Shown here in pieces: positions 45,087 to 62,303 of a stretch of 64,000 nucleotides of DNA. The position numbers were made by a program, and so were the translations under genes. Each line of letters opens with the position of its first letter. The first letter of the stretch is position 1. Source of the stretch: Candidatus Aenigmatarchaeota archaeon (GTDB lineage: Archaea; Aenigmatarchaeota; Aenigmatarchaeia; QMZP01; JAFGSV01). The stretch is taken from NCBI GenBank assembly GCA_016931255.1, contig JAFGFG010000003.1:1-64000 (forward strand), read 5' to 3'. The notes under the pieces were generated by a model. The model was not told the origin of the DNA, made no database searches, and saw nothing but the letters and a program-made list of their open reading frames with translations.

Positions 45087-45478
45087 TTTTTACCACCTGT
45101 TATCTTTTTGGTCGAGTATCCCTTTAATTTTTGAATTCGTACTATCCTGCAGAAAAGACCTTCACTGTAAAGTAGCTTTCTTATCTCCTCGGCATCCTGA
45201 TCGTATCCGAGTGCTATGACATCCGGCTTCTCTTCCCTGACGATTTTCATCATGTCGTCATCGTCACCTATGACCACCTTGTCCACGAAAGAGAGAACGC
45301 CTATCCTTTCTGCCCTGTATTCCGCGCTCTCAAGAAGATTCTTCCTGCTTCTGACCTTTTTGTCTGAGGCAACCACGACCACAAGCCTGTCGCCAAGCTT
45401 CTTTGCTTTCTCCAGGAAGAATATATGCCCGGGATGCAGGATGTTGAATGCCCCCCCGGCCAGCACCTTTTTTGGCAT
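45083..45478 (-). CDS. ribL: FAD synthase, archaeal RibL type
   Basis: Adenylates FMN to FAD. 131 aa with a single nucleotidyltransferase domain. GGAFNILHPGHIFFLEKAKKLG (HxGH at ~15-18) is the ATP site. VVVVASDKKV (~33-42), PDVIALGYDQ and the end KGYSTKKI (in place of ISSTxIR) match RibL-type cytidylyltransferase-like proteins. A glycerol-3-phosphate cytidylyltransferase is the alternative but less likely. The ATG lies 28 bp from a TATA-like box shared with the divergent MgtE-like gene. Confidence 0.88.
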   Translation of the reverse strand: MPKKVLAGGAFNILHPGHIFFLEKAKKLGDRLVVVVASDKKVRSRKNLLESAEYRAERIGVLSFVDKVVIGDDDDMMKIVREEKPDVIALGYDQDAEEIRKLLYSEGLFCRIVRIQKLKGYSTKKITGGKK

Positions 45479-45533
45479 ACTTTATCCTTGGTTCCTTTCT
45501 TATAATTTATATCATCTCAGGCAATTGTTTAAA
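45479..45533. promoter_or_regulatory. Divergent promoter with central TATA box, ribL / mgtE-like
   Basis: A 55-bp gap whose only AT box, CTTATAATTTATATC (45499-45513), is centred 28 bp from both the minus-strand ATG (45478) and the plus-strand ATG (45534). Gap length and box position match the divergent promoter at 12729-12783. Confidence 0.5.
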
Positions 45534-46103
45534 ATGGTAGTAGCAAACTCCATGCTTCGCATTATCGAAGAGACGCTACCAGTAATACTTCTGTTTGCAT
45601 TCGTCGGTCTTTTCACAGGCGGCTTCCTCAACACATTAATTGAGGATACATCGGTAGCCTCCGGCCTGCTGATAATAGTTCCGGGAATTCTCGGTCTCAG
45701 GGGAAACATATCATCCGCGCTCGGAGCGAGGCTGTCATCAGGGCTGCATCTCGGCTACATATCGACGAAGCATATATCCAATGGATTGAAGACGAACATA
45801 GAGATAAGCATATTCATGAGTGTTTTCGTTTCTTTTGTGCTCTCAATACTCGCATGGCAGGTATGCTCTTTTGTCAGCGGAGCATGCATGCCGATGATAA
45901 ACTTCATGCTGATATGCGTGATAACCGGATTAGTCTCGGGTGTGATACTGTCTTTCACAACATCAGGCATCGCGATAATAAGCTACAGGAAGGGACTGGA
46001 TCCGGATAACATAACCCTCCCGGCAGCAGCCAGCATAGGTGACGTGATAACAATTGTGTGTCTTCTGATTTCAGTTAAATTCGTTCTGGGACTTGGACTA
46101 TGA
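45534..46103 (+). CDS. MgtE-like divalent-cation transporter, first half
   Basis: 189 aa with five hydrophobic helices, equal to one MgtE/SLC41 transmembrane domain without the N-terminal CBS regulatory part. Landmarks are LLIIVPGILGLRGNISSALGARLSSGLHLG (~43-72, conserved P and GN) and DPDNITLPAAASIGDV (~159-174). It pairs with the next gene, which carries the same landmarks. This is the archaeal COG1824 arrangement. A TATA-like box 24-28 bp upstream sets the ATG. Overlaps the next start by 4 nt. Confidence 0.88.
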   Translation: MVVANSMLRIIEETLPVILLFAFVGLFTGGFLNTLIEDTSVASGLLIIVPGILGLRGNISSALGARLSSGLHLGYISTKHISNGLKTNIEISIFMSVFVSFVLSILAWQVCSFVSGACMPMINFMLICVITGLVSGVILSFTTSGIAIISYRKGLDPDNITLPAAASIGDVITIVCLLISVKFVLGLGL

Positions 46104-46651
46104 TAAACGCAAAAGAGGTTATAGAGGAGAGCCTTCCTGTTCTGACTGTATGCGCTGCAATAAGCATAATGTCGGGCATGTTCCTTGGCAACAATCAGGA
46201 ATTGCTGAAAGCGCTTCCCGGGCTACTTATAATAGTGCCGTCATTCAATGCAGTTAACGGGAACATCTCCAGTGTCATGGCAAGCAGGATATCCTCAGGA
46301 CTCCACATGGGCCTCATCAAACCGCGGTTTCATGAAAGCGGCGTACTCAGAACGAACATACTGGCGATGACATTCGTCGCCGCGATATCTTTCCTTCTGC
46401 TCGGAATGGTGGCTGCCGGGATAAACAGCTACGCCGGCATTGAGATGGCAAACTTCATCGTCTTTCCGTCCATAACTTTCACAGCCGGGATTCTGACAGT
46501 TGTCATGCTGATGACAGGCTCGATATTCACAAGCTACCTGATATACAGGCACGGAATTGACCCGGATAATGTTGTTGTTCCAATACTCACCACAATAGGT
46601 GATTTTGTTGGGATTTCGATGCTGCTCTTAATAGCTTCAGCAGCAATCTAG
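46100..46651 (+). CDS. MgtE-like divalent-cation transporter, second half
   Basis: 183 aa, paralog of the preceding gene. LLIIVPSFNAVNGNISSVMASRISSGLHMG (~45-74) and DPDNVVVPILTTIGDFVG (~155-172) repeat its motifs. Five hydrophobic helices. ATGA overlap with the first half implies 1:1 production and a heterodimeric pore in the membrane. Ion is probably Mg2+ or a similar divalent cation, by family only. The third gene supplies a likely cytoplasmic regulator. Confidence 0.88.
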   Translation: MINAKEVIEESLPVLTVCAAISIMSGMFLGNNQELLKALPGLLIIVPSFNAVNGNISSVMASRISSGLHMGLIKPRFHESGVLRTNILAMTFVAAISFLLLGMVAAGINSYAGIEMANFIVFPSITFTAGILTVVMLMTGSIFTSYLIYRHGIDPDNVVVPILTTIGDFVGISMLLLIASAAI

Positions 46652-46692
46652 TAAGTTATTTAAGACAGCATATTAAATGAAAATAAGGAGTC

Positions 46693-47298
46693 GTGGTAAA
46701 AATACCAAAATCCGAATACAAAAGCGAGAAAATTCTAGAGGATCTGCTCGGAAAAGAGAAGAATGTCGTTGACCTTATTGTCGAGATGAAGGACATGGTA
46801 AATCTCGCCATAGCACTCGGCTTCTCTGCGCTTCTCATGCAGGACCAGAAGCTTGTGGAGAAAATTCACGAGCTTGAAGAGGAGATAGACATCCGGCAGT
46901 ATGAGGTTGAGGCAGAATGCATGCTTGCGACCAAGACGCCAAAGGATGCGCTTGAACTTACATCCGTGCTGAGGCTTTCAAGCGCTATGGAAGACATATC
47001 CAATGCCATAAAAGAGCTTATAGATTCACTGTCAAGGGGGATACCGATACACCCCACGATTCTCAAGGGGCTTAAGGACTCGATAGAGGTTGCCGATTTC
47101 GTTGAAATAAAGAAACGCTCAAAGGTGATAGGCAAGACCATAGAAGAGCTCACAGAAGGCCACGTAAGTGTTATAGGCCTCAAGAGGGATGACAAGTGGA
47201 GATACCTTCCAAAGAAGGATGATGCGATATCAGCAGGCGATGTGCTGATCATATCCGGAAGGAAGAATGATGTAAGCAGTATAATCAAGAAGTCTTAG
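46693..47298 (+). CDS. PhoU plus TrkA-C domain regulator
   Basis: 201 aa. A PhoU-like helical bundle (~10-110, with AMEDISNAIKELIDSL) is followed by a TrkA-C/RCK-C ligand domain (~120-200: RSKVIGKTIEEL, GDVLIISGRKNDV). Archaeal COG3273 proteins of this build sit next to split MgtE transporters and probably gate them on ligand binding. A GTG start is used, with AAGGAG (46684-46689) as ribosome site. The 3' end overlaps the convergent 50-aa gene by 14 nt. Confidence 0.88.
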   Translation: MVKIPKSEYKSEKILEDLLGKEKNVVDLIVEMKDMVNLAIALGFSALLMQDQKLVEKIHELEEEIDIRQYEVEAECMLATKTPKDALELTSVLRLSSAMEDISNAIKELIDSLSRGIPIHPTILKGLKDSIEVADFVEIKKRSKVIGKTIEELTEGHVSVIGLKRDDKWRYLPKKDDAISAGDVLIISGRKNDVSSIIKKS

Positions 47299-47437
47299 GC
47301 TTCCTCTTTGTCTGTGGGTTAAGGAACGGCGCAGGAAAAACACTCTCAGAGCGCTTCCTCAGTTTATGAATATAAACAGCTGCTGCCAGAAATATGACTG
47401 AAGCGGATGCAGCCAGACAGATTGTTATGGTTTCCAT
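47285..47437 (-). CDS. 50-aa single-helix membrane protein, end of coiled-coil operon
   Basis: A short gene easily missed because of its size. METITICLAASASVIFLAA opens a single membrane helix (~4-23), followed by a basic tail (HKLRKRSES, then TKRKPKTS). Its ATG (47435-47437) is 2 nt beyond the stop of the 857-aa coiled-coil gene, and AAGGTGTGA over that stop is a good ribosome site, so translation is coupled. It would place a short positive segment inside the cell beside the coiled-coil proteins. Function unknown; an anchor role is inference. Confidence 0.65.
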   Translation of the reverse strand: METITICLAASASVIFLAAAVYIHKLRKRSESVFPAPFLNPQTKRKPKTS

Positions 47438-47439
47438 GG

Positions 47440-50013
47440 TCACACCTTGTCGATGTCATCCTTCGCCAGGTCCACGACCATCACACGCTCGTCAGCACCT
47501 CTTCTCTCGATGTTGTCGACCTGCCTTCTCATTTCAGCATCCTTCTCTGAAATCCTGTCAAGCTTCTTTTCCACAAGGTCCAGTCTCGTTACAATTCTTG
47601 AGAAATCCGTAAGCCTCTTCTCGTTCTCGTCAAGCTTGAGTTCAAGTATGCCCATCTTCTTGGAGAGGTCTGCTTTTGTGTTGAGGAATGCCTTGACAGC
47701 TGTGCTGAACTTGTTGCCTTCCTCATTCCTGCTCGTGTCGAACTTTCCGCGCATCTCTGTGAGTCCTGCTGCAATGTCTGTCCTCAGCTCGCCTATGTTC
47801 TTTTCGAAAATCTTTGACTTCTCTCCAATCTTCACAAGGTCTGTCCTGAGGTTCTGGAGTGACGAAAGGTTTCTGGTTATCGTGTCCTTGTCCTTTTCAG
47901 CTGTGCTGAGCCTCTGCTCTATCCTGACAACAGTGTCAATCTTCTGTTTAAGACTTTCTATGGACTTGTCTTTTGCTGCAAGTTCATTCTTTATCTGAGA
48001 TATATCACCGGAGAGCATGGACTCCGTAGCCTTTGAGCGCTCAGCAAGTGTAGCTTCCATATTGTCAGCCTTCTGGCGCAGGCTTGTCTCAATGAATTTT
48101 ATCCTGTCCTCAAGCTTCGCTTCCATTGCATCTGTAAGCGCCTGCTTCGTCTGCTCAACATCTCCAAGCCTTATCTGCAGCTTCTCAAGGTCAGCTGACT
48201 TATTCTGGAGTTTCTCAACTGCTGACTGAAGCTTTCTGCTTCCGGTGGTTTCAGAAGCCATGTCCTTTTTCAGTGAATTTATGGTAAGCGTGATTCCCTG
48301 AATATCCTGGTCAATCTTAGCGAGTGCAGCTGAATTGAATGCAGTGTCTTTTTTTATTGCACTCACATTGTATTTTATCTTATCGTCTATTGCAGAATTA
48401 GCACCATCCATTGCAATTTTCATGGTGCCAAGGTCTTTTGAGAGCGAAGCAATTTTCTTGTCAAGTAACTTTATCTCTTCTATTTTTGCTGCAATCCCGC
48501 TGACAGCTTTCTCTGATACGGATAGCCTTGCAGCAAGACTGTCAATTGACCGGACGCTTTTCTTGGTTGTGTCATGGTCAGCTTTTATGGAGCTTATCAT
48601 TTTTGTCGCACTTGCAAGGTCTTTTCTGAGTCCGGCGAGAACGAGATTCACACCGGTGACTCCTGAATCGGCCCTGGTAGCAACAGCTTTCAGGGATGCC
48701 ATGTCATCGCGGGACTTCGCTTCGAAAGCCTTTCTCTTCTCGCTGAACACTTTCATGTCCTCGGATAGCTTGTCTACCCTTCCCAGGCCGCTGACAATCG
48801 TATCCCTGACCTGTTCTATCTCAGCAACACGGCCTGCGATATCCCTGTATGAATTGACCTTTTCCCAGAGAAGCACAAGCTCGCTTTTGTTATCATCCGT
48901 TGCCTTCTTCAGGGCTGTTGTATTGCCCTTCAGGTCCTTAAGCCCTGAATCACTCTTTTCCATTTTGGTTTTCATTTTATTTATGTCAGCAAGCTCCCTG
49001 CTAAGGAGCTTGTTCATAGCAACAATATCCGCGGAAATTTTTGTCTCAAGCGTGCGTCCTTTTTCAGTGAGATTTTCCTCAAGGAATTTGAGCCTCTCCT
49101 GCATCTGGGTCTCCATTGAAGCAGTTTTCCCTGCCATCTGGTTGTCAAGAACCTTGGCCTTTTCAAGAAGCCTTGATTCAAGGAACTTGTCTGCATCACT
49201 GAGTCTTGTTTCGAGATCCTTGGTTTTCTGCTTGAGTGCTGACATGTCATTCTTTATGGATTTTATGGATTCCACTCCCTGCACAAGCCCGCTCTTCACA
49301 TCTTCTATGTGCTTTATCTTTGACTCGAGCACGCCAAGCAGTTCAAGCTTCTTGGCAGTTGCCGCAGCGGCTGTTTTTACATTGGTCATTCTTTCATTCT
49401 CAGCCATTATGTCCTTTTTCAGTGACTGAAGCGTAAGCATGGTCTTTTCAAGGGCGCTGTCATGTTCCTTTATCACAGCAGTCTGGGTATCTGAGAGTTT
49501 CTTCACCATCTCCATGCCTGAAGTGAACTTCTTATCGACAGCATCTATTGCATTTCTGGATGAAGAATCAACAGCTGAAATCTTCTCATTGGCAGATGTG
49601 ATTAATGTACTTATGTCCTGAAGGAATTTTGAAACACTGTTCTCGAATTTTCTTGTGTCGCTTATACCCCTCGCAGCTTCTGCAGCAGCATCAGTTGCCT
49701 TCTGTATCTTCTGGCTGACAATATCCAGTATCTTCTTCTGGTCTTCAAGCCTTTTCTGTATTCCGGTTATCTCAGAGCCGAGATTCGCACCGAGGTTACT
49801 GACGTTATCATCGTTTGTTTTCAGTTGCTCCTTCATTCCGGATATGTCTGCGGTGAACCCCTCACTTCTCCCTGCAAGGGCCCTTATCTGGGCGGTGTTG
49901 TCGTCAGTCATCCTGTGAAGTTCCTGTGTAAGAAAACCGTAGTTTTTTTCAAGATCTTCTTTCTGTTTTTTCAGGCCCGTTATCCCACTTCTGACCTTAC
50001 TGAAGCTGCTCAT
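47440..50013 (-). CDS. Very large coiled-coil protein (857 aa)
   Basis: Nearly the whole protein is heptad-repeat helix with no membrane segment or enzyme motif. Internal repetition is visible: MQERLKFLEENLTEKGRTLE and a later KLEDRIKFIETSLRQKAD align, as do many LxSLKxDM / IxSIKxD segments. The order suggests a rod built by duplication, like SMC-, tropomyosin- or crescentin-type scaffolds but without ATPase heads. It is the fourth gene of a tight operon (1-nt gap upstream, 2-nt downstream). Its partners are two other large coiled-coil proteins of similar type. Confidence 0.75.
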   Translation of the reverse strand: MSSFSKVRSGITGLKKQKEDLEKNYGFLTQELHRMTDDNTAQIRALAGRSEGFTADISGMKEQLKTNDDNVSNLGANLGSEITGIQKRLEDQKKILDIVSQKIQKATDAAAEAARGISDTRKFENSVSKFLQDISTLITSANEKISAVDSSSRNAIDAVDKKFTSGMEMVKKLSDTQTAVIKEHDSALEKTMLTLQSLKKDIMAENERMTNVKTAAAATAKKLELLGVLESKIKHIEDVKSGLVQGVESIKSIKNDMSALKQKTKDLETRLSDADKFLESRLLEKAKVLDNQMAGKTASMETQMQERLKFLEENLTEKGRTLETKISADIVAMNKLLSRELADINKMKTKMEKSDSGLKDLKGNTTALKKATDDNKSELVLLWEKVNSYRDIAGRVAEIEQVRDTIVSGLGRVDKLSEDMKVFSEKRKAFEAKSRDDMASLKAVATRADSGVTGVNLVLAGLRKDLASATKMISSIKADHDTTKKSVRSIDSLAARLSVSEKAVSGIAAKIEEIKLLDKKIASLSKDLGTMKIAMDGANSAIDDKIKYNVSAIKKDTAFNSAALAKIDQDIQGITLTINSLKKDMASETTGSRKLQSAVEKLQNKSADLEKLQIRLGDVEQTKQALTDAMEAKLEDRIKFIETSLRQKADNMEATLAERSKATESMLSGDISQIKNELAAKDKSIESLKQKIDTVVRIEQRLSTAEKDKDTITRNLSSLQNLRTDLVKIGEKSKIFEKNIGELRTDIAAGLTEMRGKFDTSRNEEGNKFSTAVKAFLNTKADLSKKMGILELKLDENEKRLTDFSRIVTRLDLVEKKLDRISEKDAEMRRQVDNIERRGADERVMVVDLAKDDIDKV

Positions 50014-50014
50014 A

Positions 50015-52078
50015 TCAGCCCTCCAGCTCTTTGATAAGTTTTCCCATTTCGAGCCTGTATTCCTTCTTCATGCCGACAACCTCTCCGAGAACCCTCTCGA
50101 TTTTTTTCTCAAGAAGTGCTATCTTCTTGGCGTTGGATGATGACGATTGTGCATTCGATGAAGAAATCCCTGAAAGTTCTCCTGTAACCTTGAGCAGCTC
50201 CTTCAGCCTTGTGTCCAGCTCAGCTGTCTGCGATGCAAATCTTTCCCGTTCCCTTGATATGACAGCATCAAGGTCAGCCTTCACTTTTGCTGACATTCCC
50301 TGAAAGTCCTTGCTTGCCTGAAGCGACTGCAACTCTATATCGGATTTCACAGAAGATGATACATGCTTCATTTCATTGATGGAATCAGTTATCCTCTTTT
50401 CCATTCCCATCACGCCCTGCTGAAGGTCATTGAGAACAACGCCCATTGACTTGAGGTTCTTCACATCAGCACGGAGCGTGGCGTTTTCCTCCCTGAGCGC
50501 ATGGACATCCTTCTTGAGCTCATGCCTTGCTGTGGAAAATGATGTTACGTTCTCCTTTGCTATCCTTGACTCGGCTGATTCCAGACGGTTCTCGATATCG
50601 TTCCTGATGAATTCTATCTGCTTCTTAAGCATCATGTCGTTCTTTTCGGATTTGTCCTTGCTGTCAGCTATAAGCGCATTCATCCTGGAACTCAGCGCTG
50701 TGATATCTTCCTTCCTTTTTCCGACCTCTCCTGCCAATGCAATCAGCTGCGCCTCGGCTTCCATGAGATGCTGGACATCCTTTGCCATGAGGCTTATCCT
50801 CTTGTCGATTGCAGTGGCTGAAGCCTTCAGGTTCGCTCCTATGACCTTGTTCATCTTCTGAAGTTCGTTCTTCATGTGTATTTCCTTTCTTGCAATGCCT
50901 TCCCTGATGATTCTCATATGCTCGAGTACATCCTCATTTATCCCATCAAGCCTCTCATCAACAACTGCTGCGTGCTGCATCATCTTGTCCATCCTCTGGC
51001 TGAATATCCTCTCGGCATCAGTCTGGCTTTTCTTGGCAGCACCCAGGTTGGTCTCAATGGAAAGCATACGCTTGTCAACACCGCTTCCGTAAAGCTTCAG
51101 GTCTTTGGTCAGTGCGGCCTGGCTCTTCCTCATGCTTGTGCTGACATCATTTTCGAATGACGCCATGTCCGCTTTGAGCGTTTCAACCATTGATGAGAGA
51201 GCCTGCTGAGTCCTTTCAGCCTCGAGCTTTATGTCACCTAGGTTCTTCTGGTCAGCCTGCCTCAGCTCTGCTGTGGCTGTCATGACGCTCTTTTCAACAT
51301 CCCCTCTGAGGGATGTCATGTCCTTCTCAATAAGTGTCTTCGTGGATTTCATCTCAGCCCTGAGCTTCTGGGACAGCTTTTCGGTGTCAAGCCTTGTCTG
51401 CGTCAGGTTGGCTATGGTTATCTGCAGCTTTCCGTCGAGCCCCTGAATGTCTCCCTCGAATTTTCTGAGAGCCTCTATGTCCTTTCCGATGAGAAGGCTT
51501 CTTTCATTAAGCATCTCAAGTTTCTTGTTTATCTTGCCTTCCGTTGAGAGGAGCTTGGCTGCCAGCCTCTTGTCAACACCGGACTTGAACACATTGAGTG
51601 CAGAATCAATATCAGCGACAGTGGCTCCAATCTTTTCTTCCAGTAGAATATCTCCCTTCTCAGCCCTCCTGACAGCGCTTTTCAGCGCGGCCTGAACCTT
51701 TTCCTGTGTGGTCCTTATCTCAAGGTCCAGTACAGCAAGCCTTTTGTCAAGCTTGGTGAAATCAGACTTCACCAGCTTCTCCATGGATATCATTGAATCG
51801 TTGAGTGCCTTGTCTTTGGCTGCAAGCTTCTTGTCATCAGCTTCAAGGTCTGAGAGCCTCTTGGTGACAGGATTGACCTGGTTGTTTATGAAATAAAGAA
51901 GCCTTTTTCCAGCCTCTCCGTAAACATATGACGCCTCCTTGAGCTTGTTGACAAGGTAGTCATTCTTGGATTCGAGTGTTTTCGTCTCCTTGTGTGCTGA
52001 CTCAGATTCCTTCTTGTATTTTGTCGCGTCCTCCCTCAGGCGCCTGAGTTCCATTTCCACTTCCCTTATTTCATCCAT
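50015..52078 (-). CDS. Very large coiled-coil protein (687 aa)
   Basis: Continuous coiled coil from MDEIREVEMELRRLRED to the end; no membrane helix. Repeated blocks include DLEADDKKLAAKDKAL, VDKRLAAKLLSTEGKIN and VDKRMLSIETNLGAAKK, indicating internal duplication. A Ser/Asn-rich break (SGISSSNAQSSSSNAKK) near 650 may be a hinge. It starts 4 nt after the 632-aa gene and ends 1 nt before the 857-aa gene, so equal expression is expected. Cytoplasmic filament or spacer function is inference. Confidence 0.75.
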   Translation of the reverse strand: MDEIREVEMELRRLREDATKYKKESESAHKETKTLESKNDYLVNKLKEASYVYGEAGKRLLYFINNQVNPVTKRLSDLEADDKKLAAKDKALNDSMISMEKLVKSDFTKLDKRLAVLDLEIRTTQEKVQAALKSAVRRAEKGDILLEEKIGATVADIDSALNVFKSGVDKRLAAKLLSTEGKINKKLEMLNERSLLIGKDIEALRKFEGDIQGLDGKLQITIANLTQTRLDTEKLSQKLRAEMKSTKTLIEKDMTSLRGDVEKSVMTATAELRQADQKNLGDIKLEAERTQQALSSMVETLKADMASFENDVSTSMRKSQAALTKDLKLYGSGVDKRMLSIETNLGAAKKSQTDAERIFSQRMDKMMQHAAVVDERLDGINEDVLEHMRIIREGIARKEIHMKNELQKMNKVIGANLKASATAIDKRISLMAKDVQHLMEAEAQLIALAGEVGKRKEDITALSSRMNALIADSKDKSEKNDMMLKKQIEFIRNDIENRLESAESRIAKENVTSFSTARHELKKDVHALREENATLRADVKNLKSMGVVLNDLQQGVMGMEKRITDSINEMKHVSSSVKSDIELQSLQASKDFQGMSAKVKADLDAVISRERERFASQTAELDTRLKELLKVTGELSGISSSNAQSSSSNAKKIALLEKKIERVLGEVVGMKKEYRLEMGKLIKELEG

Positions 52079-52082
52079 AAAA

Positions 52083-53981
52083 TCACTTGAACTCCTTCAG
52101 AAGTGTGCTGACTCTCATCTTCTGTTCCTTGAGCTTGTCTTCAAGCTTCTTCTTCTCTTCTGCATTCTGGAATATTATCTTCTGGAGTTCCTTCTTCTCT
52201 GCGTCGAACTTCTGCTCGAGTACCTTTTGATTCTCCCTGAGGTCAGCGAGATTCTTGAATATGTTGTCTACCTTGTCGTGCAGTTCCTTCGTGGGCGTTG
52301 CCCTTTCATCAAGCTGATTTATCCTTTCCTCAAGCCCGTCAGACCTCCTGACAAAGAATTCGCGTATCTCCAGTATGTCCTTGGTCTTGTTGTCAAGCTC
52401 CGTTATTATCTCTTTTGGTGTTTCGAGCTTCTCGACGTTCTCACGCAGCGCATCAATCTTGCCCTTCAGCGCGTCCATCCTTTCCACGAACTTCTCTGAT
52501 GATTCGTCAATCGTGTCCATCCTGTCATCGATGACACCGAATTCGCCCTTTAGAGCGGATAGTTCAGCGATATCATTCCTGTTCTCAGTGATCATGTTCT
52601 CAAGTGACTGGAGCTTGTCGTCAATGAAAGCGAACCGTCCTGAGAAGTCCTTCCTCAGATTATTGGATTCTGACTCAAGCATCTTCGGTATGACATCCTT
52701 CAGCCTGTCCGTGAGTTCGCTCTTTCTTTCCTTCTCCTTCTCTCCTGAGGATTCCCTGAAGTCTGCTATTGCCTTCTTCAGTTCAGTGTGATTGTCCTCA
52801 AGGCGCACAATCCTGTTATCCAGTTTGGAAAGCGATTTTATCTCAAGAAGAATCTCACCGAACTTGTCACTAATCCTGTCGTTCATTTCCTCTACTTTCT
52901 TCACCCTTTTTGAGAACGGGTCTATCTTCTCTTCGGTCTCTCTCTTCACGACAAGGGGAATGACCTCGTCCTTGAGGTCGTCTGCTGTGGAAATAAGCAT
53001 CCTGAGCTTGTCTACATTCTCCGGACCGAGCTTCTTCTCGAACATCTTCATTTTCTGCTCAAGTTCCGGAATGGTGTTTAGCACTTCCATCTCCCTGTCG
53101 ATGGACATGAACCTGTCTTCTGCCTCTTCCTTGAAAGCGTCAAGAAGCGTTGCTATATCCTTCAGGGATTTTTTGAAGCTGTCAACTTCCTTCTTGAAGT
53201 CAACGCCTCCGCCCATGGCCATGAGACCGCCTGAAGCGTCAGAACCCGGAGAGCCATCTCCTCCGAGTGCAGGCTTGACCTTTGCTTCCTCGAGCTTGTC
53301 GCTGAGATCCTTCAGCCGCTTGTCAAACATCTTCTTCATTGTGACAGCGACTTCCTCTTCGTCCTGCTTCTGTGTCTGCTTCTGCTCGGCAATCGCCTTT
53401 ATGGTTTCCTGAAGCGTCTGCATCTGGGCGGATGTCTTTTCCTCCAGCGCCTTGAGCTGGGGCGCCATGTCCGGCATCACCTGTGCAGAGGCAGGTGCTG
53501 ATTCCTGAGGGGGCTTCTTTTCAATGTCTCTCATCTCACCTGTCATGTCCTCTATAAGCTCAGCGAGCTCGTCTCCTTTATGTAAAGCATCATCTTTCTC
53601 CTTCTCAAGCTCTCTCATTGTCTGCTTCTGCGTCTCTATCTGCTTCTTCAGCTTCTCGGCCTCAGACTTGCTTGTCTTCTTTTTCTTCTTGGGAGTCTCT
53701 TCAGCAGGCTCTTCCTGAGGCTGGGGTTCCGGTTCGCTGACCGGTTCCGGTTTGGGTTCTTCAGCGGGAGCATCAACTAGGTTTTCTTCTGGCTTGGCTT
53801 CTTCAGCGGGCTTTTCTTCAGGATTTCCGTCAGTTGCAGAGCCTATATTCTTGAGTCCTTCAAGGCCGCTGTCATCTGCCTTAGAATCACCGCTGGCAGC
53901 CATCTCCTCAAGCTTCTTCTGCTCTTCATCTATGCTCTTTTCCCCTTCCTTCTTTTCGTCCTTCTTCTTTCCGAACATCAC
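52083..53981 (-). CDS. Large coiled-coil protein with acidic Pro/Glu-rich head (632 aa)
   Basis: The first ~20 residues are basic/charged (MMFGKKKDEKKEG). Residues ~25-105 are an acidic, proline-rich, probably disordered stretch (for example PEPVSEPEPQPQEEPAE) ending in a KKKKK block. From ~105 the chain is coiled coil, broken by a Gly-rich linker near 245-260 (GGDGSPGSDASGGLMAMGGG). Its N-terminus resembles in composition that of the coiled-coil gene running off the window at 64000. It overlaps the small membrane gene by 4 nt. No enzyme motif. Function unknown. Confidence 0.75.
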   Translation of the reverse strand: MMFGKKKDEKKEGEKSIDEEQKKLEEMAASGDSKADDSGLEGLKNIGSATDGNPEEKPAEEAKPEENLVDAPAEEPKPEPVSEPEPQPQEEPAEETPKKKKKTSKSEAEKLKKQIETQKQTMRELEKEKDDALHKGDELAELIEDMTGEMRDIEKKPPQESAPASAQVMPDMAPQLKALEEKTSAQMQTLQETIKAIAEQKQTQKQDEEEVAVTMKKMFDKRLKDLSDKLEEAKVKPALGGDGSPGSDASGGLMAMGGGVDFKKEVDSFKKSLKDIATLLDAFKEEAEDRFMSIDREMEVLNTIPELEQKMKMFEKKLGPENVDKLRMLISTADDLKDEVIPLVVKRETEEKIDPFSKRVKKVEEMNDRISDKFGEILLEIKSLSKLDNRIVRLEDNHTELKKAIADFRESSGEKEKERKSELTDRLKDVIPKMLESESNNLRKDFSGRFAFIDDKLQSLENMITENRNDIAELSALKGEFGVIDDRMDTIDESSEKFVERMDALKGKIDALRENVEKLETPKEIITELDNKTKDILEIREFFVRRSDGLEERINQLDERATPTKELHDKVDNIFKNLADLRENQKVLEQKFDAEKKELQKIIFQNAEEKKKLEDKLKEQKMRVSTLLKEFK

Positions 53982-54256
53982 TTACCAAGCTCCTCAATGA
54001 GTTTTTTGGTGAGTCTTTTCTGCTTGATGAAGTCCTCATGAAGACCGTCCATTTTGCCTTCAAGATGCTGGAACTTGGTCGTCAGGTCAGAGTCAGCCAT
54101 ATCCTCCGGCCTTATGCCGACGAACTTCTCCCATATCTTTTCTGTTGGAAGCTCGTACTTTTTGGAATGATACGTTTTGAACTTGCGGAGCTCATAAACC
54201 AGAAACCCTACAGATGCTACGAGCAGAACCGATACCGCTATGTCTAATTCATACAT
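53978..54256 (-). CDS. Small membrane-anchored coiled-coil protein (92 aa)
   Basis: An N-terminal membrane helix (~5-22, DIAVSVLLVASVGFLVYEL) is followed by a charged region and a C-terminal coiled coil (~60-92, HLEGKMDGLHEDFIKQKR). First gene of the coiled-coil operon. TATATA (54280-54285) is 26 bp before the ATG, giving a leaderless start. The 4-nt overlap with the 632-aa gene couples translation. A membrane anchor for the long coiled-coil proteins is the natural reading but remains inference. Confidence 0.7.
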   Translation of the reverse strand: MYELDIAVSVLLVASVGFLVYELRKFKTYHSKKYELPTEKIWEKFVGIRPEDMADSDLTTKFQHLEGKMDGLHEDFIKQKRLTKKLIEELGK

Positions 54257-54279
54257 AGTTAATCTATCTTATAATTGGT

Positions 54280-54285
54280 TATATA
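54280..54285 (-). promoter_or_regulatory. TATA box of the five-gene coiled-coil operon
   Basis: TATATA within AAGCTATATAACC (minus strand) is centred 26-27 bp before the ATG of the 92-aa membrane protein, in the 66-bp gap after minD. The operon can therefore be transcribed apart from minD, although readthrough is possible. Confidence 0.5.
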
Positions 54286-54322
54286 GCTTAAATAAAATTT
54301 GGAATCTTTTTTGCTATTCAGC

Positions 54323-55096
54323 TTACTTCCTGCCGAATCTGAACATTTTTGCTATCCTCGTAAGGAATGTTTCCGGGATGTACTTCTCGCCTATAAGCTT
54401 CCCGGCGAGTTCAAAGAATGCCCTGCTGGCGGGTGATGAGGGATTGTACGTGACCACCGGGGTCTTGAGCGCAAGGCTTCTCAGCACATTCTTGTCCATG
54501 GGAACTATGCTTATGACATCAAGCTCTGCAAGCTGCTTGACCTCGTCGGTGCTGAGCTCATACCTCTCCTTTCCCACCATGTTGAGCATTATACCAAGCG
54601 GCTTGGTTCCGAATTCAAGTGCAACCTGATGGCATTTTATTATGTCCATTGTGGATGGCACGAATGGTGTTGATACGAAAAGAACCTCATCACTCGCACG
54701 CATCGTGGACATTGCCTCCCTTCCCATTCCGGGAGCAGCGTCCAGAAGAACTATGTCCGCTTCGTCTGTAAGCTTCTTTATGACACTTGACAGTTTGCTG
54801 ACATCAACGCCTTTCAGGTCCTTCAGTGACAGAGAAGCTGGTATGACCTTAAGTCCGGGAACATGGTAATCGTAAATGGCATCCTTGATTTTAGCCTTCC
54901 CTGTGAGAACCTGATTGAGTGTCACAGGGGAATAATACATTCCGAGATAAAGGCTCAGGTGTGATGTGGTTATGTTGCAGTCTACTATGATGACACTCTT
55001 CTTATAATGGGAAGCAAGCGCTGTTCCGAGATTGGCTACAGTAGTTGTCTTTCCAACACCTCCCTTGCCGGAGAGTATGCCTATTATTCTCGCCAT
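54323..55096 (-). CDS. minD: MinD/ParA-family ATPase
   Basis: 257 aa. Deviant Walker A is SGKGGVGKTTT (residues ~9-19), with both the signature and the catalytic lysine. VIIVDCNITTSHLSLYLG is switch I, and VLLDAAPGMGREAM (~117-130) is Walker B/switch II, where the usual DxPPG is APG. The last ~15 residues, TFLTRIAKMFRFGRK, form a basic amphipathic helix like the MinD membrane-targeting sequence. MinD proteins position cell structures by ATP-dependent membrane binding. Here it is followed by the coiled-coil operon rather than cell-division genes, suggesting that cargo. A short leader carries AGGTCGAT. Confidence 0.93.
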   Translation of the reverse strand: MARIIGILSGKGGVGKTTTVANLGTALASHYKKSVIIVDCNITTSHLSLYLGMYYSPVTLNQVLTGKAKIKDAIYDYHVPGLKVIPASLSLKDLKGVDVSKLSSVIKKLTDEADIVLLDAAPGMGREAMSTMRASDEVLFVSTPFVPSTMDIIKCHQVALEFGTKPLGIMLNMVGKERYELSTDEVKQLAELDVISIVPMDKNVLRSLALKTPVVTYNPSSPASRAFFELAGKLIGEKYIPETFLTRIAKMFRFGRK

Positions 55097-55143: not shown

Positions 55144-55812
55144 TCACCATTTGAGTGCGCAAAGTATTTTTTCCAGTTCCTGCTCATTCTGTATCAGCAC
55201 CGGAAAATCTGATGACCCTCCTATGGTTGAATGAAGTTCATACATATAATTGAGTACGTCAGCCCCGCTCCCGAGGGATATGCACGTGGCCACCATCTTC
55301 GATACTATCGATGCATTGTACCTTTTGGCGAATGCTATTATATTGGAGAATATCACATAGAGAAATGCATGCTGGAATATGTACCGTCCGTATGTGCCGA
55401 CGACATCCCTGTTGCCCCTGTAGAGTGTCCTGAGATTAGACATCTCGAAGAAGTATTTCCTGTATTTCTTCACGAAAGGCTGGACGAACGGCCATTTCTC
55501 ATCAACCATTATCTCAGGAGACCAGTAGCCTCCAACAGTCTTTTCCTTTGAGAAGTTATCCAGCATGTACTGCGGTATCCATTCGAATCTCGCCTTTATC
55601 TTGTTGCCTGTGATGTCTATGTACCTCTCCTGTTCCATCAGCCTGAATAAAGGCTTTCCCAGCCCTGCCTCATTGTGGTAGAGGTAATTGGTCTTTATGT
55701 CCCAGAGGGACTGTATCTTGAAAAGGCTTACCCCGTTCTCCTGGCCGGCTGCGCTTATCCATATCAGCCAGAAATTCTTGTAATCCGTGAGCTTTTCTTT
55801 AATCTTTCCCAT
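55144..55812 (-). CDS. Hypothetical protein upstream of minD
   Basis: 222 aa. Aromatic-rich and helical; the N-terminal ~70 residues (FKIQSLWDIKTNYLYHNEAG ... LFRLMEQERYIDI) look like a winged-helix fold, but no clear motif is present. A moderately hydrophobic stretch lies at ~145-165 (FQHAFLYVIFSNIIAFAKRY). It ends 47 bp before minD on the same strand, so regulation of or cooperation with minD is possible. The 55813-55991 gap upstream is AT-rich, with TATA-like elements and a plus-strand GGAGGTG not followed by a credible gene. Confidence 0.6.
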   Translation of the reverse strand: MGKIKEKLTDYKNFWLIWISAAGQENGVSLFKIQSLWDIKTNYLYHNEAGLGKPLFRLMEQERYIDITGNKIKARFEWIPQYMLDNFSKEKTVGGYWSPEIMVDEKWPFVQPFVKKYRKYFFEMSNLRTLYRGNRDVVGTYGRYIFQHAFLYVIFSNIIAFAKRYNASIVSKMVATCISLGSGADVLNYMYELHSTIGGSSDFPVLIQNEQELEKILCALKW

Positions 55813-55991: not shown

Positions 55992-58900
55992 TTAACCGCC
56001 AAGATGCTTGAGCTTCTCAACATTCTTCTTCCTCAGTTCATTGTATGCGTTCTCGGATATTATACCCTCTTTGAACTCCTTTTCAAGCAGTCCCAGCACC
56101 TTTTCGACCTTCTCTTTCTCCCGCTGGCGCGCTTCGTATGCGGCAGTGTCATCCGCCATCCTTGAGGTTGACGGGCCTTCTCCTATCACGTCTTCCATTA
56201 TAGGTGCCTCAACTTTCCTCTTTCTGAACATGAACATTTTATCAAGCTTCTTCTTGTACCTATTGAGCACGAAGAACATTGCCATTGCCACTATCACCAG
56301 TATGAGTATCAGTGTCAGAAGCCAGTCCGGGATTACCAGTATCGTGGAGGGACTCAGTGGAGGGGCGTTCCTGAGAAGTTCCCTTCCCCTGTCAAGCAGC
56401 CTCCAGCCAGTGGTCACTGAATCAAGTGCCTCTTCAAACATCTTCGCATCAAGGTAACCATCAGTGAGATCTATCTGATGCTCAATCTCTCCTATTATAT
56501 CATAGACGCGCGTGAGGTCTCTCTCTTTGCGTTCTGCAGTAGCATTCACATCATCCTTGAAGTCATCGAATTCATCTTTCAGTTTCTTTAGCTGGTAGCG
56601 GACCAGTTCTTCCCTGGAGCCGAAGACAATGACCGACGTCAGCTTGGAGTCAGAAGCCTTGTCGGATGTGACATTAAACGAGCCGTAATACTGGCGGGCC
56701 TCAGTGCCGACAGGAACAAGTATGTTCACAACAAAAACATCGGAATCACCCGGACTTATTAATGGTATGAGGCTTGGAGTAACTGTATACCAGCTATCAG
56801 GTATGCCCTCGAGAGCGAGTTTTACATTACGGAGTATTGCAGTCCCTGTATTGTTTACAGTAACTGACGGATACTGTGTCCATCCGGTCTCAGTAGCTAT
56901 CTCATCAGGGTACTTGACTATTTCTATGCCCGGAACAGGTGTGGGGCCGACAGGAATCTCGCCTCCCGTGTCTCCGCCTCCTCCGCCAGGCGGTGGGGGT
57001 GGTGTTTCGCCTTCCTCAGCTGTTGTGAATTCTTCATAGGCGCCGGCCTTCTCTGTGCCGGAATATGTCACAATGAATGTTATTCTCACATCTCCTATGT
57101 AACTCAGGCCTGTCGGATTTATAGTGTGTGTCAGCTCGGAATTGCCTGGTATGAGAACAGTGTCAAGCCCTGCCTGAAGCGACTCGCCTGTGTCAACCCT
57201 TGTCAGGTTCCACTGTATGAAGGCATCCTGCGAAAGTCCTCCTGTGTTTTCTATGGTCACGTCTATTCCGAGAGTGGGTATCGTGTTGTCTGTCACTGTT
57301 ATATCCCTGACGTCGAACGGCCCTCCTATGAGTCTTGTGTAAACATCCTTGGTAACCACATTGCCGTCGCTGACCATGTAAACAGTCCATCTCCAGTTGC
57401 CCTGATTAGCTGATACGGATGTATTGTAAGTCATTCTGTATCTTCCTGTCGAGAGCCTCGTCATGCTCTGGTTTGTCATTATCTGATTGTTGAGGGAATC
57501 ATACAATGTGACCATTATGACATCTGCATCCACATTTGTCAGGCCGTCTGTGACAATTGCCATAACCTCAAGCCCGTCCGTGACACTGGTTTCAGCAGGG
57601 GCTTCAAGGTCAAGTATGAGCATCCCCGGCCTTGTCTCTATGACGCTGAATGAAGAAAGGGTACTGTCATTCAGAATCATGTTTATCTGGGTTTCGTTGA
57701 ACTGCGTCTGCGACGTGATGTTGTAAATGCCTGTCGCAGAGTCTGAGAAGAGCTGGAAATACGGATAGAGTCCGGATTCGCCAAGATAGTTTGTGGTGAA
57801 GTCGCTGTTCGTCAGGCCGACAGACCTGTTGGTCGGGTCTGTTATAGCAAGGGAGACAGATGCCCCCTGAAGAGGCGCACCTTCTATATCAGTGAGCTTG
57901 TATGCTATTGTTCCGCTCTCTCCCTGATAATATTCATGGCTGTCTCTTGACGCCGAGAGGTTCACAAAAAGAACAGCATAAACGAAGAAGCTTGAGTTGA
58001 CTGTATCATTCAGCCCGAAGTTGTCTTCAGCATACACAGAGACGCTGTAATTGCCCCTCTTGACTATGCTGCCCCATGTACCATTAGTCGGGTCAGTGGG
58101 AAAGAATTCCTGATAAAGGTATGGATTGGTTCCGCTTCCAAGTCTTCTCATCTGAATCTGATAGATAGTGCCATTGGGTGCTGTCACACTGACAATTGTC
58201 TTGTTTATTCCTCCCACTCCTCCCTGGTCTATGACAGATACCAGTATCTCGACGCTGCCGTCCTGAGGTGTCGTTCCGGGTGTCACTGTCACATCAGGAA
58301 TCGGTTTCACGAACGGTGTCAGAAGGATAGACAGCGTCCTGTTCGCCGGAGTGGAGCCAACACCTATGACAGTGTAGTTGGCCTCGTAGAAGAGGAATGC
58401 GTCTCCGGTGGTGTTGTACATTATGTTTATCACTGTTCCGCTCTGATTTTCAACTGTGAAGTTCAGTGTCTCAGGCCATGTGTTGTTGTACTCAGTTTCA
58501 GAAGTAGCGTAAGGCGATATGCTGAATGTGATGTTGACATTACCTGTGTTGTTTATGGTAACATTGCAGACGCTGCCTTCTTCAGGCGATTCGGGATGGT
58601 TGCAGTCTGTGGGTGTCATGGTCCACGTTCTTGTTTCAGGAACAGTTATATTGAAATCAAGTGTCTTGAAGCCTGAATTGTTCGTGGTGATGTTGACATA
58701 TCCGAGATATGTGCCGTTCGGATAACTAAGCGGTATGGTTCCTGTGATGTTCACCACAATCAGCTGGCCGGCATAGACTGTTCCACCCTGGGTTTGTGAA
58801 ATATTCGGAACCACATTCAGGCTGAAGTCCTGGAAGTTTCCAAACTCGTCCCCGACAACTGTTGCCACATTTATTACAGGATCATTCCCGGTCGAGTTCA

Positions 58901-61900
58901 GCGTGAAATTCGCTATCACTCCGGATGTCCCGTGCACAAGGCTTCCTGAAATGCTGTTCTCAGGCACTGTCAGGTTGACATTGGAGAGCACGGTTATATT
59001 CACTGTGCTTATGTTATACCAAATGCCTATCTCGGGGTTATACCATTCTGCTGAGACATTGACAGTGTAATTTCCGGATGGTGTTCCATTGCCCACGACT
59101 ACATCATATATTCCCGAACACCCGGAACCGATGGTCACATTTCCGCAGGGAAATATTGTCTGGTTTGTCGTGCTTATTCTGGAATCTGAGAAGTCAATGG
59201 TCACATTGGCACTGAATGCAGTGATGTTGCCTGTGTTGTTTGTGCTGAATGATATATTGAAAGGCTGGGATGCATAATAGGTGATGTTTTCAGCAGTGAT
59301 ACTTTGCGGGGTGACATTAATTGTCATATTGGTTCCTGACACAGTCACATTGACATCGACTGTCTCAAATCCGTCGTTGGCAGAGCTCACATTTATGACG
59401 CCGCTGTACATGCCTGTTGAGTAGCCTGATGGCATCACAAGAAACACTTCATTAGTCTCTGTTGTTCCCTGCGTCAGCGTGCTGTAGTTTGCAGGGGCAA
59501 AGCTGAAACTGAATGCTGAAGGAAATCCTGTCACATTGAACGTGACATTCTCAAGAGGTGCATTACCGTAAGAGCTTAATGTCACATTGGCTATGTTCTT
59601 CTGGACTCCTGAGCTGACGAATGATGAGAGGAATGACTCAGAGACATCCAGTATATATGTTGGCATCACAGTGACATTCATGTTGGTTTCATTATATCCC
59701 TGAGTGGTGTCGCTGTTGTTCCAGCTTATGCTGACATTGACAGTGAAGTTTGAGGGGACTGTTTCCCTCAGAACCGTTATATTGAAATCAATGACGCAGG
59801 ACTTGGATATGAGCACATCTTTGCCGCCTTCCTCATTTAAGCACATCGCGTTTGTGGCATTGGCTGTCATGTTCTGTGGTATCTGTATGTTGACTGTTGC
59901 ATTGAACGCCGTTCCGTTCTGGGTGTTTGTTGAGTTCACCCTCAGCATGAAGCTTTCGTTCCCAAGCCACGTGACATTGGTTACTGGATAGTATGAAGGG
60001 ATTGCAACTATGTCAAGAAGCGTGTTGACTTCCTCTGCTGTGAAGTCGTATGCGTCGTAGCCGTCATTGCCGTCTTTCTCAGCAGTGCAGTTGAGAGTGA
60101 AAAGCCCGAAATAAGCAGGAGCAGTGAAGTTGATGTCATAGCTGCCGTTGCCGTAGTCGAGTATGTTTGCCTGTGGCACTTCTGTCATCCAGGCCGCGCC
60201 GTCATAGACGGAGCAGTTGATGAATGCTTCCGGATGCCACACACCCTGCCTGAAGTTGGTCACATTGATGCTGGCATTTATGAGCCTGCTGACATCACCC
60301 TGCGGATTGTGTATGACAGTGCTGACATGCAATTCCTTGGTTACTGTGATATTTTTGGATGATGTATTGAGCAGGTATCCGTAAGAATCATATATGTAGG
60401 ATTTAACTTCCCATAATCCCGTATTGTCGTAAGTTGTTATGTTGTAGGAATTGGAATATACAAGGTCACCGGAAACTGAATCTGTATGGGTTCCGTCGTC
60501 ATACATTTCCAGGACTATGTCGTCGCCCGTCCCTCCTGTTCCGTTGTTGAGTGTGGCGTTGACCGTGCTGTGGAGTCCATATGGGTCATATGAAAGGTTA
60601 AGAGTAATATAAACTGTCTCATTCCGGTTGTATGTGTCAAAGTCCGTTTCTGTCGCAGACATCAATGTTCTGGATTCATACGTGTCATAACTGGTGACAC
60701 CCGGTGACCTGAGGTTGTTATTGATATTGACGAACTCTGTTGTGCCTCCCCGGCCGAAGTAAGCAGCGCTCTTCTGGACTATTGATTCACCGGGCGATAT
60801 GCTCAGGCTGCTGAGATGCACCCCGATGCGCCCGCCGTCAATGCTGCTGTTGGTCACGAAGTATTCCTGCGCGCTCTCTTCAAGATTGACAAGACCTACA
60901 ATCTCGGTTCCATCAGAGAACGCATAGGACCATGAATACGGGTCTGTTGCATTTCCGTCATATGGCGTTCCTGAGGGACCGGAACCTATGGCCTGCCATC
61001 CTCTTACGATATCAAAGGCAACTGCGCCTGCTTCTGTTGAGTTCCTGCTTATCTGATAAGCTGCAGTATTTGTGAAATTCTGCTCAATCTTTATCCAGCC
61101 ACCGAAGGATTCATCCCCTGCATGATTGTATATGTAGTATTTCTTGGTCATGCGGCCCTCGCCTGTCGGCTGTCCCGGATTCCCGAAAATTATCTCATCG
61201 CCTTCTTGGATTACAGTCAGCCTCACAGGGCCTTCGACCACAGTGAAGTTGCATGCCATATCAAAGCTGAAGTTGTATGTGCCATTGGAATACTCATTAT
61301 ATTCTATGGTCCTCGCATCCTCCCCGCTGCTCAGGAAGAATGGAACAGGCTCTGCTGTGGACTGGAACTTCACGAAGTATATACCCGACGTGTTCTCGCT
61401 CCTGTTGCTGTCTATCCGTATGTCTATGATACTGTTGTTGACGAAAAGCTCATCACCGTTAATCACGTATGAAAGGTTCGTTGCATAGCTTGGGGCGGCT
61501 TTCTGTCCGTTTTCAGTTGCATCGAAGTAAAGGAAGAATGTCCTGTTCGTGTTGCTCTGGGTAGTTCCGTTGAGTATGAAGACAAATGTGCCATCAGCGT
61601 TGCCGGATGCGTCATAGCTGTAGAAGTCCCTGTCAAACTGGCTTGGCAATTCATGCATCACATCGCCTGTTGAATTGTACTCATAGAGTCTTGTGGAATT
61701 TTCGTCAAATGTTTCAGGGAATCCAAGCTGTCTGAGGACATCAGTGAAGTTTATGTCCAGCTCAACAGGCTTGTTGATAGAGTCGTAATCGCCGTTCTCA
61801 ATCTCTATTTTTATTCTGTATTTCCATGTATTGTTCCACCATTCATAACGGTGAACGAAAACACTGTCGAGTATGCTGAGGCCTGCGTCGTATCCCTGGG

Positions 61901-62303
61901 AAGAGCCGTCGCATGTGACATTCCATGTGTAATTATCCTTCTCCGGGAATGCTCTTGCATACTCATATAGCTGTGTGACACCGCTGTAGCTCATTGATGC
62001 AGGGGCTGTCCATGAACCGCTTATGTTGAAGATTATGTCGCATGTGACGCCGACACCTGTTATCGGTGACCCGTCGGCGCTCGAAGTGAAGTTCGCATAG
62101 AAGTAGGTGTTCTCATTTATCGTTGCCGGAACCGAGCCTCCCTGAGCATCAGCGCTGCTCCACACTGAAAGGTCTGAATTCGCACCGCTCACTGATGAGA
62201 ACATTCCCGTATATGTTAAATTTGTATATGTGAAACCCAGCGACATGGCTGCAACTATCAGAAGCGCCAGTATTGCCCCGGTTATCACGTTTATGCCTTT
62301 CAT
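55992..62303 (-). CDS. Giant surface protein (2103 aa) with SHOCT-like cytoplasmic tail
   Basis: An N-terminal MKGINVITGAILALLIVAA is a prepilin-like or uncleaved signal helix. A DUF2341-like domain follows (~165-275, YRIKIEIENGDYDSINKPVE). After it come many Ig/CARDB/NEW3-type beta repeats with dozens of N-x-S/T sequons. A linker ETPPPPPGGGGGDTGG is near 1775. A helical region leads to a membrane helix (~2005-2025, WLLTLILILVIVAMAMFFVL). The cytoplasmic tail ends with a SHOCT-like motif, LLEKEFKEGIISENAYNEL. It is the largest surface protein in the window. It starts 7 nt after the coiled-coil gene at 62311, which bears the same tail motif. Confidence 0.82.
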   Translation of the reverse strand: MKGINVITGAILALLIVAAMSLGFTYTNLTYTGMFSSVSGANSDLSVWSSADAQGGSVPATINENTYFYANFTSSADGSPITGVGVTCDIIFNISGSWTAPASMSYSGVTQLYEYARAFPEKDNYTWNVTCDGSSQGYDAGLSILDSVFVHRYEWWNNTWKYRIKIEIENGDYDSINKPVELDINFTDVLRQLGFPETFDENSTRLYEYNSTGDVMHELPSQFDRDFYSYDASGNADGTFVFILNGTTQSNTNRTFFLYFDATENGQKAAPSYATNLSYVINGDELFVNNSIIDIRIDSNRSENTSGIYFVKFQSTAEPVPFFLSSGEDARTIEYNEYSNGTYNFSFDMACNFTVVEGPVRLTVIQEGDEIIFGNPGQPTGEGRMTKKYYIYNHAGDESFGGWIKIEQNFTNTAAYQISRNSTEAGAVAFDIVRGWQAIGSGPSGTPYDGNATDPYSWSYAFSDGTEIVGLVNLEESAQEYFVTNSSIDGGRIGVHLSSLSISPGESIVQKSAAYFGRGGTTEFVNINNNLRSPGVTSYDTYESRTLMSATETDFDTYNRNETVYITLNLSYDPYGLHSTVNATLNNGTGGTGDDIVLEMYDDGTHTDSVSGDLVYSNSYNITTYDNTGLWEVKSYIYDSYGYLLNTSSKNITVTKELHVSTVIHNPQGDVSRLINASINVTNFRQGVWHPEAFINCSVYDGAAWMTEVPQANILDYGNGSYDINFTAPAYFGLFTLNCTAEKDGNDGYDAYDFTAEEVNTLLDIVAIPSYYPVTNVTWLGNESFMLRVNSTNTQNGTAFNATVNIQIPQNMTANATNAMCLNEEGGKDVLISKSCVIDFNITVLRETVPSNFTVNVSISWNNSDTTQGYNETNMNVTVMPTYILDVSESFLSSFVSSGVQKNIANVTLSSYGNAPLENVTFNVTGFPSAFSFSFAPANYSTLTQGTTETNEVFLVMPSGYSTGMYSGVINVSSANDGFETVDVNVTVSGTNMTINVTPQSITAENITYYASQPFNISFSTNNTGNITAFSANVTIDFSDSRISTTNQTIFPCGNVTIGSGCSGIYDVVVGNGTPSGNYTVNVSAEWYNPEIGIWYNISTVNITVLSNVNLTVPENSISGSLVHGTSGVIANFTLNSTGNDPVINVATVVGDEFGNFQDFSLNVVPNISQTQGGTVYAGQLIVVNITGTIPLSYPNGTYLGYVNITTNNSGFKTLDFNITVPETRTWTMTPTDCNHPESPEEGSVCNVTINNTGNVNITFSISPYATSETEYNNTWPETLNFTVENQSGTVINIMYNTTGDAFLFYEANYTVIGVGSTPANRTLSILLTPFVKPIPDVTVTPGTTPQDGSVEILVSVIDQGGVGGINKTIVSVTAPNGTIYQIQMRRLGSGTNPYLYQEFFPTDPTNGTWGSIVKRGNYSVSVYAEDNFGLNDTVNSSFFVYAVLFVNLSASRDSHEYYQGESGTIAYKLTDIEGAPLQGASVSLAITDPTNRSVGLTNSDFTTNYLGESGLYPYFQLFSDSATGIYNITSQTQFNETQINMILNDSTLSSFSVIETRPGMLILDLEAPAETSVTDGLEVMAIVTDGLTNVDADVIMVTLYDSLNNQIMTNQSMTRLSTGRYRMTYNTSVSANQGNWRWTVYMVSDGNVVTKDVYTRLIGGPFDVRDITVTDNTIPTLGIDVTIENTGGLSQDAFIQWNLTRVDTGESLQAGLDTVLIPGNSELTHTINPTGLSYIGDVRITFIVTYSGTEKAGAYEEFTTAEEGETPPPPPGGGGGDTGGEIPVGPTPVPGIEIVKYPDEIATETGWTQYPSVTVNNTGTAILRNVKLALEGIPDSWYTVTPSLIPLISPGDSDVFVVNILVPVGTEARQYYGSFNVTSDKASDSKLTSVIVFGSREELVRYQLKKLKDEFDDFKDDVNATAERKERDLTRVYDIIGEIEHQIDLTDGYLDAKMFEEALDSVTTGWRLLDRGRELLRNAPPLSPSTILVIPDWLLTLILILVIVAMAMFFVLNRYKKKLDKMFMFRKRKVEAPIMEDVIGEGPSTSRMADDTAAYEARQREKEKVEKVLGLLEKEFKEGIISENAYNELRKKNVEKLKHLGG

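Follow-up and report, generated by a model that had tools for sequence, protein, structure and literature searches.

The locus lies in a 0.93-Mb metagenome-assembled genome (MAG) of nine contigs assigned to Candidatus Aenigmatarchaeota, a name also carried by the close relatives that possess U222; the archaeal origin suggested by the sequence-only reading of this DNA is supported. The stretch analysed (the window, 64,000 nucleotides) encodes on its minus strand minD and, downstream, a five-gene operon for two small membrane proteins (M92 and T50) and three large coiled-coil proteins (CC-A, CC-B and CC-C). All six open reading frames are present with the sizes, coordinates and spacings previously reported (-4, +4, +1 and +2 nt), except that the last spacing becomes -4 if T50 is started at an upstream GTG rather than at its ATG; the ATG is favoured by relatives whose proteins begin METYLM or METYAL. 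That reading covered half of the locus, having missed the upstream genes U222, S2103, C620 and giant HerA; the same-strand order is giant HerA protein - C620 - S2103 - U222 - minD - M92 - CC-A - CC-B - CC-C - T50 (Table 1). The end of the operon faces a convergent plus-strand group (45216-47298) made up of two MgtE-like membrane genes and a PhoU/TrkA-C gene, which keeps this position in G001, G002 and G004.

Table 1. Genes of the MinD/giant HerA locus (positions in the window unless stated otherwise)
Gene	Position	Strand	Features
T50	47285..47437	-	50 aa (52 aa from upstream GTG); single TM, basic cytoplasmic tail
CC-C	47440..50013	-	857 aa; coiled coil, conserved N-terminal cap; positional orthologues 270-1131 aa
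CC-B	50015..52078	-	687 aa; coiled coil, conserved N- and C-terminal caps; orthologues 687-1387 aa
CC-A	52083..53981	-	632 aa; disordered N-terminus, coiled coil, conserved C-terminal EKKxLExxxKxQKxRIxxLLKELK
M92	53978..54256	-	92 aa; N-terminal TM and short cytoplasmic coiled coil; conserved C-terminal ..KKLIEELGK
MinD	54323..55096	-	257 aa; MinD/ParA-type deviant-Walker ATPase (Pfam ParA/CbiA/AAA_31, alignment, tree, tail moment)
U222	55144..55812	-	222 aa; helix-turn-helix-like and C-terminal helical domain; paired with MinD; AF2 pLDDT 82
S2103	55992..62303	-	2103-aa surface protein; NEW3/MG2-like domains, TM 1995-2013, cytoplasmic tail motif in common with C620
C620	62311..64173 (contig; window ends at 64000)	-	620-aa coiled coil; S2103 tail motif present twice; between S2103 and giant HerA
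Giant HerA protein	64205-72391 (contig, beyond window)	-	>2728 aa, cut by contig end; ectodomain, one TM helix, cytoplasmic HerA-type ATPase

Relatives keep the gene order and the protein families at 25-85% identity, and the locus is therefore not a chance arrangement. The order giant HerA - C620 - S2103 - U222 - MinD - M92 - CC-A/B/C, with or without a terminal tiny membrane gene, was pieced together from overlapping segments in five genomes (G001, G002, G004, G012 and G016), in two of which (G002 and G016) one coiled-coil or M92 gene is not called or is cut. The stretch from giant HerA to CC-C was recovered in the genus, the family and f4, and is accompanied by the tiny TM gene in f1. Truncated or partial versions occur in G005, G014, G024 and the f5 genomes, where parts are rearranged with minD/U222 still beside CC-A (L048-L051), and parts of the locus lie on separate contigs in G013, G019 and G033. 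Families f16 and f30 (L145, L146) possess contiguous HerA, C620-like, S2103-like and MinD genes in which the S2103-like and MinD frames overlap by 4 nt, and in f6 (L130) MinD is found inside the HerA cluster. In f13 (L161, L162), CC-A, CC-B and CC-C lie downstream of MinD in that order, and one or more coiled coils precede a tiny TM protein and MinD in f27/f29 (L151, L152). The linkage of minD to the coiled-coil and tiny membrane genes, on which the earlier proposal depended, is thus maintained across f1, f4, f5, f13, f27 and f29. The U222-MinD pair at G003:C1:557721-559859 (L041, L124) is followed by unrelated genes and preceded only by a C-terminal fragment of S2103 (64% identity); we do not accept it as proof of unlinking, since this fragment just upstream points to a probable mis-join or deletion in the assembly. 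The genomes compared are MAGs.

MinD carries the deviant Walker A motif KGGVGKT, together with a MinD-type Pfam match, and has a conserved, amphipathic C-terminal tail. The helical moment of this tail (0.64-0.71 in seven members) equals or exceeds that of the MinD tails of E. coli and B. subtilis. Judged by its sequence, the tail is membrane-targeting-like, as had been suggested, and has the amphipathic helix of the membrane-binding branch. The locus genes include no MinC or MinE partner, which distinguishes them from the Min division system. In a tree of 64 MinD-like proteins, every MinD linked to coiled coils or HerA falls within a single clade that has 38 members (support 99/96). No such context was seen for the remaining 26, although several of their loci are short; contexts were read from the longer loci. 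Phylogenetically, MinD is hence a member of a locus-associated subfamily; a separate paralogue in the genome (C1) is 45% identical.

The large operon proteins display coiled-coil-like heptad periodicity, with peaks at 3.46-3.58 residues and power above every shuffle, according to a home-made composition/periodicity measure distinct from COILS and DeepCoil; Pro, Trp and Cys are almost absent from the CC-B and CC-C rods. Other than MinD, no product of the operon gave a Pfam match above the cut-offs. As these coiled coils show neither an SMC/Rad50 Pfam match nor a P-loop motif that would indicate an ABC ATPase head or hinge, we conclude, as the earlier proposal required, that CC-A, CC-B and CC-C are not SMC or Rad50 arms. 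When coiled-coil ends from other families were compared, 16 of 18 N-termini and 14 of 18 C-termini best fitted the expected family; the conserved end is the C-terminus in CC-A, both termini in CC-B and the N-terminus in CC-C. Rod lengths vary across families from 270 to 1387 aa while the ends and the gene order are kept, as would be expected if the proteins were structural rods that dock through their conserved ends. Tiny TM proteins resembling T50 are encoded in L048, L151 and L152. Near the locus, a 435-aa coiled-coil-rich protein is encoded on the minus strand (39815-41122 in the window), with a 37% identical counterpart in G001 (L120).

Upstream of minD, U222 has representatives in 24 of the 156 genomes. 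Foldseek returned only weak PadR/IclR-like matches (the best with E values from 0.29 upwards and none below 0.001), and a firm assignment to PadR was rejected because these matches are not significant. The last 68 residues of S2103, searched against the whole genome, gave just two matches besides S2103, both within C620 (E about 0.001 each). This common module is the best sequence hint that S2103 assembles with C620, and we propose that the cytoplasmic tail of S2103 either binds C620 or is built like it.

In its C-terminal part the giant protein has, by hydropathy, a single TM helix and, after it, a HerA-type ATPase, for which PF01935 (DUF87) and PF05872 score above cut-off and a sequence search of the PDB returns HerA chains. 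Walker A, Walker B and a REFRKWG motif are kept in all 25 aligned members. The AF2 model of the HerA core (mean pLDDT 85.6) finds as its best Foldseek match the hexameric DNA translocase HerA of Sulfolobus (E 4.8e-13), and also matches FtsK (2ius), the coupling protein TcpA and VirB4. Sequence and predicted fold thus place the ATPase in the HerA branch of the HerA/FtsK superfamily, with intact ATPase motifs. It shares the core fold and motifs of the HerA-NurA system, but no HAS-barrel was found, this side being replaced by the TM helix and giant ectodomain that precede the HerA core, and no NurA gene adjoins. Ectodomains of the NEW3/MG2 type are found in the giant surface proteins. In relatives the giant HerA protein is 4-11 thousand aa long, with homologues of about 4,750 aa and single open frames of 11,249-11,262 aa. 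For example, G064:C2 (about 31316-65080; L105, L125) and G067:C12 contain single frames of ~11,260 and 11,249 aa that end in the TM helix and HerA ATPase, and in L105 the giant frame is immediately preceded by a U222-like gene and a gene for an HTH-TM protein of 299 aa, with a similar arrangement in G067. Strong TM-HerA matches occur in 55 of the 156 genomes, 29 of which have class A. The genome also encodes a separate, shorter HerA-like protein (C5, 693-aa frame). Searches of IMG/VR and of plasmids gave only weak DUF87 matches, and TM-HerA was rejected as part of a known phage or plasmid. The giant TM-HerA proteins of L132, L134, L136, L137 and L141 form a second class, about 2,200-2,980 aa long and with an ATPase module that is 42-48% identical; a 400-520-aa coiled coil lies alongside, and no linked MinD was seen at these loci.

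Across the 156 genomes, the MinD subfamily and class-A HerA occur together in 22, one without the other in 7 and 13, and neither in 114; the odds ratio is 28, with a p-value that is inflated by the relatedness of the genomes and, as we set the class cut-offs ourselves from E-value lists, only indicative. Class-B HerA shows no such tie to the MinD subfamily in these genomes, and as its giants occur without this MinD, not every giant HerA needs MinD. The sequence-only reading had left MinD without a cargo. This was mistaken: besides the giant surface protein with its cytoplasmic HerA ATPase, the conserved locus encodes another giant surface protein and an adaptor coiled coil, and these genes are directly adjoined by MinD in several families. 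The likely cargo is the giant HerA/surface complex. The membrane-tethered scaffold envisaged in that reading fits the anatomy of the encoded proteins.

Starting from the established gene content, conserved linkage, HerA fold, ATPase motifs, hydropathy topology, MinD subfamily and shared tail motif, we propose, with about an even chance of being right, that the locus encodes a MinD-placed, coiled-coil-scaffolded, cross-envelope HerA machine of the Aenigmatarchaeota with DNA or protein as its substrate; complex formation, positioning, a hexameric state, transport and substrate are what we infer. In such a machine the two giant surface proteins would reach outside the cell, and one of them would carry at its inner end, beyond its single TM helix, an ATPase of the HerA family, probably assembled into a hexameric pump ring on the cytoplasmic side of the membrane. 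C620 would act as an adaptor coiled coil with the cytoplasmic tail of S2103. Through its amphipathic tail MinD may bind the membrane in an ATP-dependent manner and, with the M92 and T50 anchors and CC-A/B/C, would form a membrane-tethered scaffold that places the machine at a chosen site, for example a pole or a contact zone; U222 may be a regulator or adaptor. The ATPase would most likely move a polymer by way of the giant complex, either inside it or along it, during cell-cell contact; we rank DNA ahead of protein as this polymer because of the HerA fold. We suggest more tentatively, and consider it rather unlikely, that the machine serves contact-dependent DNA transfer (uptake or delivery) in archaea that are probably host-dependent: the ectodomains would reach a partner cell, the HerA ring would pump and a MinD-driven coiled-coil cap would place the machine, without pili or a VirB6 channel. 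The known Ced/Ted importers likewise use a membrane VirB4/HerA-type ATPase to import DNA, and MinD/ParA and HerA genes occur near Ted loci (PMC9905601). In contrast to Ced/Ted and T4SS, no VirB6/CedA channel or VirB2/CedA1 pilin was seen in our locus, its ATPase is fused to a giant ectodomain and the fold is nearer to HerA than to VirB4; no relaxase was found in the locus, and no polytopic protein is encoded among the locus genes in the window. Among the small multi-TM proteins that adjoin MinD in other families, none was matched convincingly to a channel or pilin in Pfam.

A device for protein secretion or effector delivery, EssC/VirD4-like and with the same scaffold, is rather unlikely: HerA/FtsK-type ATPases do drive T7SS and T4SS coupling, and TcpA and VirB4 are among the Foldseek matches, but no effector, WXG-type or channel gene was recognised in the locus and the nearest fold is that of the DNA translocase HerA. 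It is improbable that the locus specifies a division or segregation device, in which the membrane HerA would be an archaeal FtsK-like DNA pump, and MinD and the coiled coils a division-site scaffold like PomXYZ. HerA and FtsK belong to one superfamily, with FtsK 2ius matched in Foldseek, and in the published accounts of Myxococcus xanthus the ParA/MinD ATPase PomZ is activated by its large partners PomX and PomY, with which it forms a positioned scaffold (PMC7993993, PMC13170346). The locus resembles PomXYZ in having a MinD/ParA ATPase that would work with large scaffold partners, but PomXYZ has no giant surface proteins or HerA ATPase, and PomZ acts on the nucleoid, whereas the locus MinD has a membrane-targeting-like tail. 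Presence of the machine is moreover patchy (as seen in the counts of strong and class-A matches given above), its ectodomains are thousands of residues long and no FtsZ/CdvB gene was found in the locus. We consider similarly improbable a static envelope scaffold of adhesin- or S-layer-like giants resting on cytoplasmic coiled coils, for shape or adhesion and with HerA used only for assembly; the NEW3/MG2-type ectodomains, variable-length coiled coils and common tail motif would suit it, but the ATPase motifs are strictly kept over 25 sequences and a MinD ATPase is fixed in the locus. It is highly improbable that MinD is an ordinary FleN-type pilus or motility regulator beside unrelated coiled-coil genes, as although FleN/MinD ATPases are common archaeal T4P regulators (PMC4858521) and four T2SSE/PilB-type ATPase matches over cut-off elsewhere in the genome limit the earlier claim of pilus gene absence to the locus itself, which holds no archaellum, pilus or chemotaxis genes, the C1 paralogue is available and the linkage kept across many families already weakens this view.

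The components of the proposed MinD-placed HerA machine belong to known superfamilies, and their combination fits no system that we compared. Archaeal MinD4/MinD2 of Haloferax and FleN/MinD of T4P organise surface structures (PMC11588486, PMC4858521), but the locus MinD belongs to a separate clade associated with coiled coils and giant HerA. No published description of a HerA/MinD/coiled-coil locus was found in the open-access literature searched, and none is given in the 'dark matter' papers of Makarova (2014 and 2019). If correct, the proposal would define a new kind of envelope-spanning machine, combining a pump-type motor, giant surface proteins and a MinD-positioned coiled-coil scaffold, that is widespread in one DPANN phylum (55/156 genomes, with proteins of up to about 11,260 aa). 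It would offer a concrete means of testing how archaea of very small size make contact with partner cells and exchange material with them, and would bear on which structures, other than those of motility and cell shape, are positioned by archaeal MinD proteins. A different MinD is found in another recurring cluster (L129, L154, L158), where it accompanies a surface-like protein of ~780 aa with two TMs, a signal-TM protein of 440-610 aa and a two-TM protein of 195-200 aa; a further two-TM protein, of 410-440 aa, is often present.
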